From positions 1 to 64,000 of the forward strand of contig NZ_CP025612.1 in the NCBI RefSeq assembly GCF_002868735.1: a DNA stretch of 64,000 nt, written 5' to 3'. This document shows, piece after piece, positions 43,419 through 47,493 of the stretch. A program made the translations under genes and the position numbers. Position 1 is the stretch's first letter. Every line of letters starts with the position of its first letter. The stretch is from Niveispirillum cyanobacteriorum (GTDB taxonomy: Bacteria > Pseudomonadota > Alphaproteobacteria > Azospirillales > Azospirillaceae). The notes below the pieces were generated by a model. The model ran no database searches and was not told the origin of the DNA. It was given only the letters and a program-made list of their open reading frames with translations.

Positions 43419-43958
43419 ATGTTCAGTTCATTACGGAAACTCGCCATTGCGGGTTCATGTCTGCTGGCATGTGGCAGCCACGCTAAATCTCCACCTGAAG
43501 ATTTTAACTTCAGAGGTGCAACTTTTGGCATACCAAAGTCCACCCTCAAGAAATTACATAAAGTCGACTGCCAAACTTACGGAACAACAGACTTCTGTTC
43601 GGAATCATATGTAGAGATAGGCAGCTTGCTTGCCTCTAGGGTGCTGTACTCATTTGCCGGCGATAAACTGAATGATATTGATGTTTCTTTTCATGCAGTT
43701 AGATTTGATAGGGCGCGCGAAGCTGTGACAATAAAGTACGGCGAGCCCGCCGTTTATCAGCTTGAAGAGCTTATTGAGGGCGGAATAAAAGTGACCGCAA
43801 CACAATGGGTTTGGGTTCGGCCAGAGGTCGAAATCATTATGCAGTTTCCCAGTTTTACTCACAATGAAGGGTCCCTAAAGTACCTCCCGCCCGGCTCATT
43901 GCACGCCAGAAGCGAAAGGCGTCGCGAGCAAGCGAAACGCGACGCCGAAAGCTTCTAA
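43419..43958 (+). CDS. Secreted low-GC cargo protein
   Basis: 179 aa on the strand opposite the tail operon, with GAGGGG before ATG 43419. Signal peptide with possible lipobox (IAGSCLLACGSH). The mature part contains FRGATFGIPKSTLKKLHKVD and AREAVTIKYGEPAVYQ, a small alpha/beta pattern, and a basic C-terminus (RSERRREQAKRDAE). Lower GC than the phage genes. Probably a periplasmic moron protein expressed in the lysogen; function unknown. Confidence 0.68.
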   Translation: MFSSLRKLAIAGSCLLACGSHAKSPPEDFNFRGATFGIPKSTLKKLHKVDCQTYGTTDFCSESYVEIGSLLASRVLYSFAGDKLNDIDVSFHAVRFDRAREAVTIKYGEPAVYQLEELIEGGIKVTATQWVWVRPEVEIIMQFPSFTHNEGSLKYLPPGSLHARSERRREQAKRDAESF

Positions 43959-43966
43959 TGCCATCC

Positions 43967-44425
43967 TCAAGTCTGAACTCTGCAAGGAGTTGCTAGACCA
44001 ATCTGCGCGATGCTCCACAGCAGACGCAGGGTATCGTCCCCGTCAATGTCATGCAGAAGTTCGGGTGTCGCCGGACGGCCATAAATGGCGGCGTTGAGGG
44101 CGTCGGTCGTCCCGATCTGTCGTGCGAAGATGTACCGCACCTGAAGGCGCAGCCCCTCCAGGGTTTGGGCTTGCGTCTTCGTCAGGCGGTCGGCGTAATG
44201 GTCAATGGCCGCATAGAACGGTTCATGATCTGCATCCTTGCCGCCATTGGGCAGTAACTCCTCTGCCGCGTACTGAAACATCTTGTTTGCCCGAACATAC
44301 CCCGCAAACGCCTCCAACAGGGCGGCGTCGGGGTGGCTGTTGGCGATGGCCGCCGGCAGCGCCAAGCCAGCCGTTGCCGCCCCCGCCAGGGCCTTGCCCA
44401 GCAGGTCACGTCGATTGATGGTCAT
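43967..44425 (-). CDS. Tat-exported small protein, unknown
   Basis: 152 aa. Twin-arginine signal NRRDLLGKALAGAATAGLAL followed by PAAIANSHPD. The mature part is helical with FAGYVRANKMFQYAAEELLP and IDHYADRLTKTQAQTLEGL. ATG 44425 has GGAG eight bases upstream. Part of the accessory island; Tat-signal proteins of this size are unusual in a phage. Function not recognised. Confidence 0.65.
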   Translation of the reverse strand: MTINRRDLLGKALAGAATAGLALPAAIANSHPDAALLEAFAGYVRANKMFQYAAEELLPNGGKDADHEPFYAAIDHYADRLTKTQAQTLEGLRLQVRYIFARQIGTTDALNAAIYGRPATPELLHDIDGDDTLRLLWSIAQIGLATPCRVQT

Positions 44426-44891: not shown

Positions 44892-45680
44892 TTACTCCGC
44901 CGCCTCAGAGGGGCAAAACAGGTCCTCGGGCGGAGCCACGCCCAACTTCTTGGCAAAGTAGGTGATACCGCGTGGCGTTACATAGGTTTGGTGCCGGGCC
45001 TTATCGTCGACAAGGGTGGCTTTCACCTCGAATAACCCCAGGTCACGGAACTGCGCCTTCGGAACGAGAGCCGACCCTTGATAAAAAAGGTACCCCTGCT
45101 TCAGCCAACTGACGAACTTGTTTGGCTTTTGTCCGAGCACTCGACCTGCATTCTGAAGGCAGTAAAGGCCGTCGGCATTGGCGAACTGATCATAAAAAGC
45201 AGCTTTGGGCTTGGTCGCGGACACAGATTCTTCCAGTCGCTTGGCACGCCCCTCAAGCTCCCGGTTCAGTTCGATCAGCTGGATAGCTATGCGGCTCAAC
45301 TGGCTCGGGTCGCGAAGGTCGATCTGGGCCGGGGTCGGGTTCCGGAGCCGATCCTCCATCACGTTGAACTGTTCGATGTACCGCAGCTTGAAGGCCAGCG
45401 CTTTCTCGCCGGTGAAACCCATGGCCAGCAACGCAAAGCCGTCGCGGGTCATGTCGAAAGTGCGTCGATCAACGCCCTGACCGTCAGGGGCGGCGGACTG
45501 AGCAAACATTGAACTCCCCAATTTTGGGGAGTCCATATTTTTCAACAGGTTGTCGATGTCCCGCAGCACATGGTCGTGCCGCTTCTCGAAGAACGCCGCC
45601 ACGTCACGGCTGTTCGCATAGACTTTTCCATCCCGCACGGTCAGCGCGGGAACCTTGCCAGAACCATCAAAGCCTGACAT
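44892..45680 (-). CDS. rha: Rha-family phage regulator with KilAC antirepressor domain
   Basis: 262 aa. ATG 45680 is preceded by GGAGG at five bases; the frame is open further up. N-terminal Rha domain: VYANSRDVAAFFEKRHDHVL, FDMTRDGFALLAMGFTGEKA, FKLRYIEQFN. A coiled link (LIELNRELEGRAKRLEES) joins a C-terminal ANT/KilAC DNA-binding domain (NAGRVLGQKPNKFVSWLKQG; TYVTPRGITYFAKKL). Such proteins act as antirepressors or inhibit growth of phage in particular hosts. It follows a ribbon-helix-helix gene on the same strand, separated by a strong terminator. Confidence 0.88.
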   Translation of the reverse strand: MSGFDGSGKVPALTVRDGKVYANSRDVAAFFEKRHDHVLRDIDNLLKNMDSPKLGSSMFAQSAAPDGQGVDRRTFDMTRDGFALLAMGFTGEKALAFKLRYIEQFNVMEDRLRNPTPAQIDLRDPSQLSRIAIQLIELNRELEGRAKRLEESVSATKPKAAFYDQFANADGLYCLQNAGRVLGQKPNKFVSWLKQGYLFYQGSALVPKAQFRDLGLFEVKATLVDDKARHQTYVTPRGITYFAKKLGVAPPEDLFCPSEAAE

Positions 45681-45726
45681 AACTACCTCCGTTGCATGTG
45701 TGAGTTTTCGAGGCTTGCTCATGTTC

Positions 45727-45774
45727 AAAACGCCACCGGGGGGAGTTTCCTAGGCCCTTCCCCGGTGGCGTTTT
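45727..45774. terminator. Strong terminator/attenuator between RHH gene and rha
   Basis: Perfect 15-bp stem AAAACGCCACCGGGG / CCCCGGTGGCGTTTT with an 18-nt loop; A and T ends make it usable in both directions. On the minus strand it would limit read-through into rha. Confidence 0.75.
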
Positions 45775-45779
45775 GCATT

Positions 45780-45962
45780 TCAGGCCGCCGCATCGCTGGC
45801 CGCCTGGGCTTCCAGCCCCTTTGCAATAAGCAACCTGATGGCATCGCTGCGAGCTGGCACGCCAGGCGCACGCCCACGCCAATAGTCAATGCGGTCAATC
45901 ATATCGTGACTAAGGCCGACAGTGAGTCGCCGGCTGCCATCTTCGGAAATCTTGGGCCTCAT
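45780..45962 (-). CDS. Arc-like ribbon-helix-helix repressor
   Basis: 60 aa. After a basic N-terminus the beta strand RRLTVGLS is followed by helix A (DMIDRIDYWRGRA) and helix B (ARSDAIRLLIAKGLEAQ), the RHH/CopG fold. Size is close to P22 Arc (53 aa). GAGG precedes ATG 45962. It is divergent from a second RHH gene, and each has a palindrome about 35 bp before its start. Being upstream of rha on the same strand, it probably represses that transcription unit and itself. Confidence 0.75.
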   Translation of the reverse strand: MRPKISEDGSRRLTVGLSHDMIDRIDYWRGRAPGVPARSDAIRLLIAKGLEAQAASDAAA

Positions 45963-45985
45963 TGCACTTACCTCGCGATTGAGAT

Positions 45986-46011
45986 GTCATTCGTGTAATT
46001 ACACACATGAC
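45986..46011. promoter_or_regulatory. Operator-like palindrome O1 (minus-strand RHH side)
   Basis: Perfect GTGTAATTACAC core (45993-46004) within a longer dyad GTCAT-nn-core-nn-ATGAC. Its centre is about 36 bp before the start of the 60-aa RHH gene. Confidence 0.65.
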
Positions 46012-46035
46012 GCAGTTTGGCTTGCTCGTCAAGCG

Positions 46036-46056
46036 GTGTAATGACATCCATTACGT
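46036..46056. promoter_or_regulatory. Operator-like palindrome O2 (plus-strand RHH side)
   Basis: GTAATG-acatc-CATTAC (46038-46054), starting with the same GTGTAAT half-site as O1 (46036-46042 region). Its centre is about 32 bp before ATG 46078. Confidence 0.55.
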
Positions 46057-46077
46057 CGAAATCAGGGAAAGAAGGCG

Positions 46078-46554
46078 ATGCAGAAAAAAACTGAACTTCT
46101 TCAGATGCGGACTTCGCCAGATTTCCTGGAAATGCTCGACGAATGGCGTCGCCGGGTTCCCGACATCCCATCCCGCGCCGAAGCCATCCGCCGCCTTGTC
46201 CAGCGCGGCATCCTCTTCGACGCCCTCTACGAACAACTCCAAATCCTGGTTTCCGACGGCCTGATGCCCGAGCAGGGCTTCCTGACCATCATGGACCGCA
46301 TCGGGTACGATTCCCGGCTGGACATGGACGCCCCTGAAGACGCGCCCGCGCCCCGTCCTGCCACCGGTACCGGCGATAAATCCCCCTCCCAGGTCTGGCG
46401 CGAACACAACGCCAAAATCGCCTCCCTCGAAGGCAGCTACGCCCACGGCTCCCACCAGGGGCAGCAGCCCGTCCGTGACATTGGCAACGATGAACCCAAA
46501 CTCCCGCGTTCCGGCCTCAAACGGCACGTGCGCGGGTTAACCAAGAAGCCCTGA
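46078..46554 (+). CDS. Ribbon-helix-helix regulator with C-terminal extension (Mnt-like position)
   Basis: 158 aa. RHH fold at the N-terminus: ELLQMRTSPDFLEMLDEWRR and RAEAIRRLVQRGILFDALY, then a helical segment and a disordered Pro/Gly/His-rich tail. Start ATG 46078 follows AAGG. Divergent from the Arc-like gene with two palindromes between them. The extension after the RHH domain parallels P22 Mnt, which also carries an extra C-terminal part. Probably controls the minus-strand RHH-rha unit. Confidence 0.72.
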   Translation: MQKKTELLQMRTSPDFLEMLDEWRRRVPDIPSRAEAIRRLVQRGILFDALYEQLQILVSDGLMPEQGFLTIMDRIGYDSRLDMDAPEDAPAPRPATGTGDKSPSQVWREHNAKIASLEGSYAHGSHQGQQPVRDIGNDEPKLPRSGLKRHVRGLTKKP

Positions 46555-46776: not shown

Positions 46777-47076
46777 ATGCACATTCTGTCCCTGCGCACC
46801 CTCAAGACTTTCTGGGCAGTGCATGCGCAGGCGGAGGTGCCGCTCAGGGCTTGGTATGCGGTCGCATCCAAGGCCACTTGGACCACTTCAGCTGACATCA
46901 AGGATACGTTTGGAGCGGCTGTTGACTTTGTAGGTGACAATCGCGTCGTGTTCGACATAAGCGGCAACAAATACCGCCTCATCTGTCACGTTGCCTACAA
47001 GCACGGCAAGATTTTGGTTAAGTTTGTGGGTACGCACGCAGATTACGACAAAATAAAGGACGTAACTACGGTGTGA
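46777..47076 (+). CDS. higB: HigB-type mRNA interferase toxin
   Basis: 99 aa. Matches the HigB_toxin pattern throughout: MHILSLRTLKTFW, PLRAWYAVASKATW, SADIKDTFGAAVDFVGDNRV, VFDISGNKYRLICHV and VKFVGTHADYDKI. Ribosome-dependent mRNA cleavage is known for the family. ATG 46777 is chosen because family members begin at this point. The antitoxin gene follows 39 bp later. Confidence 0.88.
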   Translation: MHILSLRTLKTFWAVHAQAEVPLRAWYAVASKATWTTSADIKDTFGAAVDFVGDNRVVFDISGNKYRLICHVAYKHGKILVKFVGTHADYDKIKDVTTV

Positions 47077-47115
47077 CCCCCCTTCTGTTGCGATATTTAA
47101 CTATTGGTGATGACC

Positions 47116-47493
47116 ATGATGAATGTTCGAGCGATCAAGAATGAGGACGATTACGATTGGGCCTTGACTGAGATCGAACAGTACTTTGATCAGGAGCCGG
47201 AACTCGGTACCCCCGAATCCGACCGCTTCATGGTTCTGTCCGATCTTATTAGCGCCTACGAGGCAAAACACTGGCCTGTTGAGGCGCCGGACCCAATCGC
47301 AACCGTTACAGCAGTGATGGAAACGATCGGCTACAAGCAGACTGATCTCGCTGCCTTGTTGGGTTCCAGGTCGCGAGCATCGGAAATTCTGAATCGCAAG
47401 CGCAGCCTTACGACTGAAATGGTGTGGAGCCTGTATAAGGAGTGGAAAATCCCCGCCGAACTGTTGGTGCGTCCCTATCATCTAGTTAAGTAG
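47116..47493 (+). CDS. higA: HigA-type antitoxin with XRE helix-turn-helix
   Basis: About 125 aa. The N-terminus IKNEDDYDWALTEIEQYFDQ is typical of this HigA branch, followed by SDRFMVLSDLISAYEAKHWP. The HTH reads VMETIGYKQTDLAALLGSRS then RASEILNRKRSLTTEMVWSL. A TTG at 47104 and ATGs at 47110, 47116 and 47119 compete for start; 47116 has GGTGA at good spacing. Neutralises HigB and represses the operon. Confidence 0.85.
   Translation: MMNVRAIKNEDDYDWALTEIEQYFDQEPELGTPESDRFMVLSDLISAYEAKHWPVEAPDPIATVTAVMETIGYKQTDLAALLGSRSRASEILNRKRSLTTEMVWSLYKEWKIPAELLVRPYHLVK

Follow-up and report, generated by a model that had tools for sequence, protein, structure and literature searches.

The divergent RHH genes and rha

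The window, i.e., the whole 64-kb stretch analysed here, is the start of contig C2 (1.25 Mb) of the Niveispirillum cyanobacteriorum genome (6.05 Mb in total). At 44892-46554 it carries a putative three-gene regulatory locus in a prophage: a 60-amino-acid (aa) ribbon-helix-helix (RHH) gene is followed by rha, which encodes pRha and KilAC domains, and a 158-aa RHH gene lies divergently opposite. We refer to the RHH proteins as RHH60 and RHH158, and to the three genes as the triad. The locus is compared throughout with immI of phage P22, a textbook switch. Its features, from left to right, are:

44892-45680, minus strand: rha, antirepressor candidate, 262 aa, Phage_pRha + KilAC (ANT) by Pfam and PHROGs; start chosen from the sequence
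45655-45683, plus strand: candidate antisense promoter (equivalent of Psar, the P22 sar promoter), TTGCCA-N17-CATAAC, sigma70-like, -10 overlapping the rha start codon
45690-45780, plus strand: predicted sar-like antisense RNA, ends approximate, placed from promoter and hairpin
45726-45775, no strand assigned: hairpin of 22 pairs with A4/T4 at both stem ends, read as an antisense terminator
45780-45962, minus strand: RHH60, 60 aa, in the P22 arc position; relatives are likewise placed
45986-46011, no strand assigned: O1, putative operator before RHH60/rha, core GTGTAATTACAC at 45993-46004, palindromic at 22 of 26 positions
46004-46032, minus strand: candidate promoter of RHH60-rha, TTGACG at 46027-46032, spacing 17 nt, poor -10 CATGTG at 46004-46009
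46036-46054, no strand assigned: O2, putative operator before RHH158, GTGTAATGACATCCATTAC
46078-46554, plus strand: RHH158, 158 aa, in the P22 mnt position; similar to RHH60 and aligned with relatives

The likely start of rha is the ATG at 45680, which has a GGAGG Shine-Dalgarno sequence; the gene lies 99 bp after RHH60 and stops at 44892. Both domains of a phage regulatory protein Rha with KilAC were identified over their Pfam cut-offs (Phage_pRha 3.4e-26, 92.1 bits against 29.9; ANT 4.8e-20, 72.3 bits against 25.3), using the longer open reading frame (ORF) from 45728 as the query. The protein also matches phrog_63 ('anti-repressor Ant', 9e-47). As in P22 immI, the small RHH gene is followed immediately by a candidate antirepressor gene.

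The two RHH genes are separated by 115 bp. RHH60 was recovered with RHH158 as the query (38% identity over 42 aa, E 1.5e-4). It matches phrog_4738 ('transcriptional repressor') at 2e-7, as RHH158 does weakly (0.021), and it has a weak, below cut-off match to the NikR model (0.0014). A profile of seven relatives found NikR (0.11) and a CopG protein (0.72) in the PDB, which are of the right fold class, at values that are not significant. AlphaFold monomers place helices at 19-31 and 38-59 in RHH60 (predicted local distance difference test score, pLDDT, 83) and the first helices at 14-26 and 33-59 in RHH158 (pLDDT 66). With Foldseek, neither monomer had a PDB match at E<=0.001; RHH folds are intertwined dimers, which is perhaps why a search with monomers found nothing. 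From these sequence matches and models, an RHH fold is likely for both proteins. Thus, the two divergent RHH repressor genes of the P22 layout are represented here, with the assignment of RHH158 the weaker.

The first-pass annotation described a divergent pair of one 60-aa and one larger RHH gene with a Rha/KilAC protein downstream of the small one, and all of these genes are present. Its terms 'Arc-like' and 'Mnt-like' do not hold as family names. In Pfam, RHH60 has no match and RHH158 none over cut-off (matches to E<=0.1 were listed), and the phrogs matched by P22 Arc and Mnt are matched by neither protein. Neither belongs to the Arc family (PF03869), which P22 Arc and Mnt do match, as do both RHH proteins of the genome G809 (below). 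Direct queries of viral_contigs with RHH158 and RHH60 recovered no relative, and RHH158 had none among annotated phages. Against plasmid records, RHH158 gave 11 matches that cover roughly the RHH domain only.

Both palindromic sites contain GTGTAAT. The O1 core lies 31-42 bp from the start of RHH60 and O2 24-42 bp from that of RHH158, in agreement with the annotated palindromes about 35 bp before the starts. Among 2000 dinucleotide shuffles of the 115-bp gap, such a palindrome occurred at a frequency of 0.037, two repeated 8-mers at 0.0365 and both at 0.0015; each property by itself is modest. The poor -10 of the candidate leftward promoter touches O1, the spot where a repressor would act.

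Recurrence of the triad

Triads of the same geometry were identified in at least five of the 82 genomes of the family, searched with RHH158, Phage_pRha and ANT as queries: the window and G042, G063, G013 and G045. Their antirepressors carry pRha and KilAC (window), KilAC with a sub-threshold pRha (G042 and G045), pRha alone (G063) or AntA and KilAC (G013). The G063 triad adjoins a gene that resembles the end of a tape-measure protein (by eye; no family search was made). The class and phylum samples comprised 385 and 398 genomes. There, another alphaproteobacterium, G809, has a triad in which the RHH proteins are Pfam Arc and the antirepressor is pRha with KilAC. A triad is also present in a Telmatospirillum metagenome-assembled genome (L090), where the antirepressor is of the Bro-N type and ATGTGCGCACAT and ATGTGCGCACAC lie close to the two starts. 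Separately, lone RHH genes in L003, L010 (G064) and L004/L092 (Nitrospirillum viridazoti) have one or two exact ATGTGCGCACAT sites plus near copies upstream; no antirepressor was matched within the stretch seen around them.

Four scans of viral_contigs (25, 1, the best 80 of 574, and 24 loci) and six genome stretches yielded 135 distinct antirepressor-like genes. Genes were merged only if their last 100 bases agree; near-identical phages (for example L186/L187 and L220/L231) therefore count twice. Before counting, six antirepressor genes were set aside because no start could be assigned to them, including that of L179, where both RHH genes are present. Triads account for 23 of the 129 genes with an assignable start, a lower bound given that RHH genes were detected with small purpose-built hidden Markov models; five of the 23 are the four other family triads and G809. 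Because the triad recurs elsewhere, we regard it as a module rather than a coincidence. The search beyond the window that the first-pass annotation proposed has thus returned the triad in family genomes, G809, L090 and viral_contigs loci.

The divergent regions also share sequence features. We compared 23 of them (22 triads plus the window, leaving out L229, where the gap exceeds 200 bp). A repeated 8-mer occurs in 15 (shuffles: mean 2.8, maximum 8), and TTGAC directed toward the small RHH gene in 16, against five in the opposite direction (shuffles: mean 2.6, maximum 7).

A candidate antisense RNA over the rha start

The P22 record places sar, an antisense RNA, in the arc-ant gap, with a promoter that reaches into the first ant codons and a terminator immediately past arc. 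The corresponding candidate promoter of the window has counterparts in the other family triads: TTGCCT-N17-CATATT in G063, TTGCCA-N17-CATATT in G013 and G045, and TTGCTA-N17-CATATC in G042. Outside the family, G809 has TTGAAG-N17-CATATT and L090 has TTGCAT-N17-CATACC.

A first survey of 67 antirepressor genes found TTGNNN-N17-CATANN in all six triads and in 4 of the 61 others; this set was the source of the pattern, and hence a larger set was tested. There, the pattern was identified in 9 of 23 triads and in 6 of 106 other antirepressor genes (Fisher 1e-4), and the window and L090 carry it in addition to the nine. Shuffles of the triads gave a mean of 0.17 (maximum 3), and with any spacing other than 17 in the range 8 to 29, at most two triads had it. 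Among the 18 held-out triads, which were not a source of the pattern, four have it (shuffles: mean 0.11, with 0 of 1000 reaching 4). The antisense pattern is found at 5 of 343 other gene starts and twice per strand across the 64-kb window.

Coding conservation was considered as a cause of the pattern. The hexamers share a reading frame (M-x7-N/K), but the seven intervening residues agree by only 11.6% on average, so that a conserved peptide is unlikely. The 14 leaders compared were the 13 with the pattern plus L236 (CATTTT); as they were chosen by the pattern, position 9 proves nothing. Two of the six non-triad carriers (G021 and L167) share the same kind of leader, and the leaders of L237 and L239 are unlike that of G809.

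Some related arrangements were noted in passing. In L167 (3446-3715 and upstream), an RHH gene is paired with an antirepressor, the gap contains a strong inverted repeat and the candidate antisense promoter reads TTGCCA-N17-CATATT; an HTH-like (helix-turn-helix) gene occupies the position of the divergent RHH gene (by eye). L126 / L063 (G021) has an antirepressor with the antisense promoter pattern, and no RHH genes were detected upstream. An extended -10, TGCTA[TG], lies at the first antirepressor codons of L171, L175, L183 and L209 (4 of 23 triads, 2 of 106 others), an after-the-fact observation for which no claim is made; by eye, P22 has TGCTATACT at this place.

The predicted RNA would end at the hairpin in the RHH60-rha gap. 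This gap folds more stably than its shuffles in the window (z -3.0), and z is -3.3 in G013, -4.7 in G045, -3.5 in G809, -3.0 in L209, -2.2 in L235, -2.5 in L236, -2.7 in L237, -1.9 in L239, -2.0 in G063, -1.9 in L171 and -4.3 in P22. Counting T residues in the eight bases past the stem (antisense/sense), the tail favours the antisense side in the window (3/1), G013 (5/1), G045 (4/1), G809 (4/1), L209 (6/3), L235 (5/0), L237 (5/1), L239 (4/2) and L171 (5/1); short gaps have no clear T-tail side. The hairpin had been annotated as a strong attenuator added before rha. The sar terminator of P22 occupies the corresponding position, so the hairpin is no addition; its position and tail suggest that it instead marks where a sar-like antisense RNA ends. 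With A4/T4 at both stem ends, it may act on both strands.

A covariance model (R1) was built from the sequences of six relatives, which include none of the five family loci, and was run on 73 + 62 loci and on the 82 genomes. Its top match in the window is at 45702-45794 on the plus strand, a weak score of 23.3 bits (E 0.0076 over 614 kb). High scores outside its alignment were obtained in L173 and L178 (54 bits) and L254 (44.6), where each match has a small ORF, RHH-like by eye, on one side and the antirepressor on the other; that in L177, also among the better matches, is at the end of the antirepressor rather than before it. The model is not specific, with a match at E<=1 in 59 of the 82 genomes. 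Because the window score is not special genome-wide, we treat the R1 match as supporting only. MAFFT and RNAalifold aligned ten predicted antisense RNAs poorly (consensus energy -0.82), and covariation is not claimed.

Several results weigh against an antisense RNA here. On the promoter side, the pattern is absent from 14 of the 23 triads, and among non-triad genes spacing 17 is not special (six cases, against six to seven at 19, 24 and 29). The comparison of held-out triads with non-triad antirepressors (4/18 against 6/106) reaches only Fisher p 0.038 and is not independent by descent, as L235, L237 and L239 are 54-59% identical relatives of the G809 Rha. The window promoter scores 9 of 12, and a strict consensus scan across 45500-46200 is negative for promoters, sense and antisense alike. 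An RNA starting at about 45690, at the edge of the Shine-Dalgarno sequence, would also cover the ribosome site less than P22 sar does. On the hairpin side, the strict terminator scan of the same interval (loops of 3-8) omits 45726-45775; G042 and L136 have the promoter without a hairpin; the gap is no more stable than shuffles in L090 (z -0.55) and L180 (1.3); and the T tails of P22 (3/3), L236 (2/2), G063 (2/3, on a script-chosen hairpin) and L180 (0/5) do not favour the antisense side. The Rfam sar model (RF00262), run on six loci, matches P22 only and not the window, G063, G013, G045 or G809. R1 reaches 28.8 bits elsewhere in the same genome, and its stricter search of the family left the window locus unlisted. 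Apart from this hairpin, a terminator-like inverted repeat within rha (ACTCCCCAATTTTGGGGAGT, 45510-45535) is reported on both strands by the strict scan.

These points bear on an alternative in which the switch operates without an antisense RNA, and the hairpin is a terminator or attenuator that parts RHH60 from rha, with rha expressed only by read-through or antitermination. The strict scan without an antisense promoter favours it, the window stem could equally stop a sense transcript, and the late genes run in the same direction as rha. We nevertheless consider it unlikely, given that G013, G045, G809, L235 and L237 carry their T tails on the antisense side, with poor ones in the sense direction, that the antisense pattern recurs at the antirepressor start with a fixed 17-nt spacing, and that P22 has an annotated antisense RNA at that place. 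Together, the sequence features suggest that an antisense RNA is part of the switch.

Proposed switch and its relation to known systems

We predict that in the lysogen RHH158 (in the place of Mnt) and RHH60 (in the place of Arc) would repress the leftward RHH60-rha promoter and would autoregulate at O1 and O2. The antisense RNA, starting over the rha start codon and ending at the hairpin, would pair with the rha leader and lower Rha translation. Were repression to fail, Rha would be made and, acting as an antirepressor, would counter a CI-like repressor of the phage and so favour the lytic cycle. The locus is probably an immI-type secondary immunity switch, carried in the late region of the prophage as an 'ant moron', with an antisense RNA and with Rha opposing the CI-like repressor.

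A gene for a CI-like protein was identified beyond the window, at 69852-70871 of contig C2 (phrog_4 4.5e-29, Peptidase_S24 7.5e-13), about 24 kb away. It would belong to the same prophage and is a plausible target of Rha. Control could also be as proposed while Rha acts elsewhere, in host regulation, superinfection or late-gene control, a reading that is compatible with the regulatory part. The family name of Rha is 'regulatory' rather than antirepressor, and the distance to the CI-like gene points the same way; the KilAC/ANT domain, the phrog_63 match and the presence of an S24-type repressor gene argue otherwise, and we hold action on another target to be possible though doubtful.

The triad lies in the late region of a tailed prophage. 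Genes for the small and large terminase subunits, portal, protease, major head protein, head-tail adaptor, tail terminator, tail protein and tail-assembly chaperone follow in leftward order, and then the island; on its other side are a phrog_16336 gene (function unknown) and a 2318-aa gene, called tape-measure-like by size alone. The late genes are transcribed in the direction of rha, and the location is that of the P22-type late operon. From right to left, the island comprises higB-higA (plus strand), RHH158, RHH60, rha, two small genes on the minus strand and an ORF on the plus strand (43419-43958). The higB-higA pair (46780-47493, plus strand) adjoins RHH158 and encodes a HigB-like toxin (PF09907, 3.2e-29) and a HigA-like HTH antitoxin (weak, below cut-off). 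It has the palindrome GTTCCCACATTGGGAAC upstream and is separate toxin-antitoxin cargo of the same island. Two genes past rha, a 152-aa gene (43967-44425, minus strand) has a twin-arginine signal match over cut-off (TIGR01409, 0.0012); starts of the SRRGIL/PRREIL/SRRKMI type were also seen by eye on short ORFs after the antirepressor in G021, G045 and G809.

A further alternative is that the two RHH proteins act on their own, as autoregulators or antitoxin-like factors, with no link to a rha gene that adjoins them by chance. RHH proteins are common among antitoxins, a HigB/HigA pair is next door, and the available part of one account counts repressor-antirepressor pairs among toxin-antitoxin-like pairs (PMC2701414). 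However, the three-gene order recurs across several antirepressor and RHH types, and HigB/HigA already has both of its own partners, which makes a chance association very improbable.

More broadly, we lean slightly toward a family of immI-like switches in alphaproteobacterial and related prophages, in which the retained core would be the sar-like antisense RNA gene. Its promoter would lie within the first antirepressor codons, a class that the Rfam sar model misses, and the flanking repressors (several RHH families, once HTH-type at the place of mnt) and the antirepressor domain would be swapped. That three of the four held-out pattern matches are relatives of G809 lowers our confidence in this reading. 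If it is correct, the control logic of P22 immI, in which two RHH repressors are combined with an antisense RNA across the antirepressor, is widespread among alphaproteobacterial prophages, with protein parts that can be exchanged. The antisense RNAs would form a natural set whose promoters constrain the coding sequence that they overlap, and induction switches of prophages could be found by layout after protein similarity is gone.

In the available parts of the literature, the immI layout appears in accounts of P22, epsilon34 and Edno5, all phages of enteric bacteria (PMC11016777, PMC2629481, PMC6372524); immI genes are reported for the Edwardsiella phage Edno5 (PMC6372524). The portions at hand of accounts of a Geobacillus phage and a Staphylococcus prophage describe single RHH/Arc-like or antirepressor genes only. 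Xre-Bro repressor-antirepressor pairs, listed among toxin-antitoxin-like gene pairs, likewise place a repressor gene beside a Bro-N/KilAC-type antirepressor, but the repressor is an Xre HTH rather than an RHH protein, there are two genes rather than three, and the part of the source available mentions no antisense RNA (PMC2701414). The 'ant morons' of P22-like phages such as epsilon34 are described, in the part available, as a variable regulatory cassette of the late operon, in which versions of immI gain or lose mnt, arc and ant (PMC2629481). The island resembles them as a variable regulatory cassette inserted into a late operon. It differs in that theirs are P22-type genes in phages of enteric bacteria, whereas here the host is of the Azospirillum family and the cassette lies between chaperone and tape-measure-sized genes.

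For P22 itself, the available parts of the sources state that Mnt represses arc and ant, that Arc inhibits mnt and moderates ant, and that sar binds ant mRNA, with overexpressed Ant inhibiting C2 (PMC11016777, PMC2629481). By protein family, the window locus is not P22 immI. Its RHH proteins fall outside the PF03869 family of Arc and Mnt, and its predicted RNA lacks a match to RF00262. The antirepressor type differs, as the first-pass annotation had noted: P22 Ant consists of P22_AR_N/C in place of pRha and KilAC, BLASTP finds no similarity between Rha and Ant (E 0.86), and Rha is not a member of the P22 Ant family. The RHH proteins and Rha thus share no family-level homology with Arc/Mnt and Ant, which counts against our interpretation, as function is argued by analogy from layout. 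By that layout, P22-like working would be expected. The P22 record has mnt and arc divergent, the Arc and Mnt operators between them and ant after arc, and the window likewise has a divergent RHH pair with putative operator sites between the genes, a candidate antirepressor gene after the small RHH gene and a late-operon position. The spacing is also similar (divergent gap 90 bp in P22 and 115 bp here; arc-ant gap 68 and 99 bp), and the positions of the sar promoter and terminator match those of TTGCCA-N17-CATAAC and the hairpin. In geometry, spacing and late-region position, the P22 immI-like arrangement originally annotated is therefore upheld.

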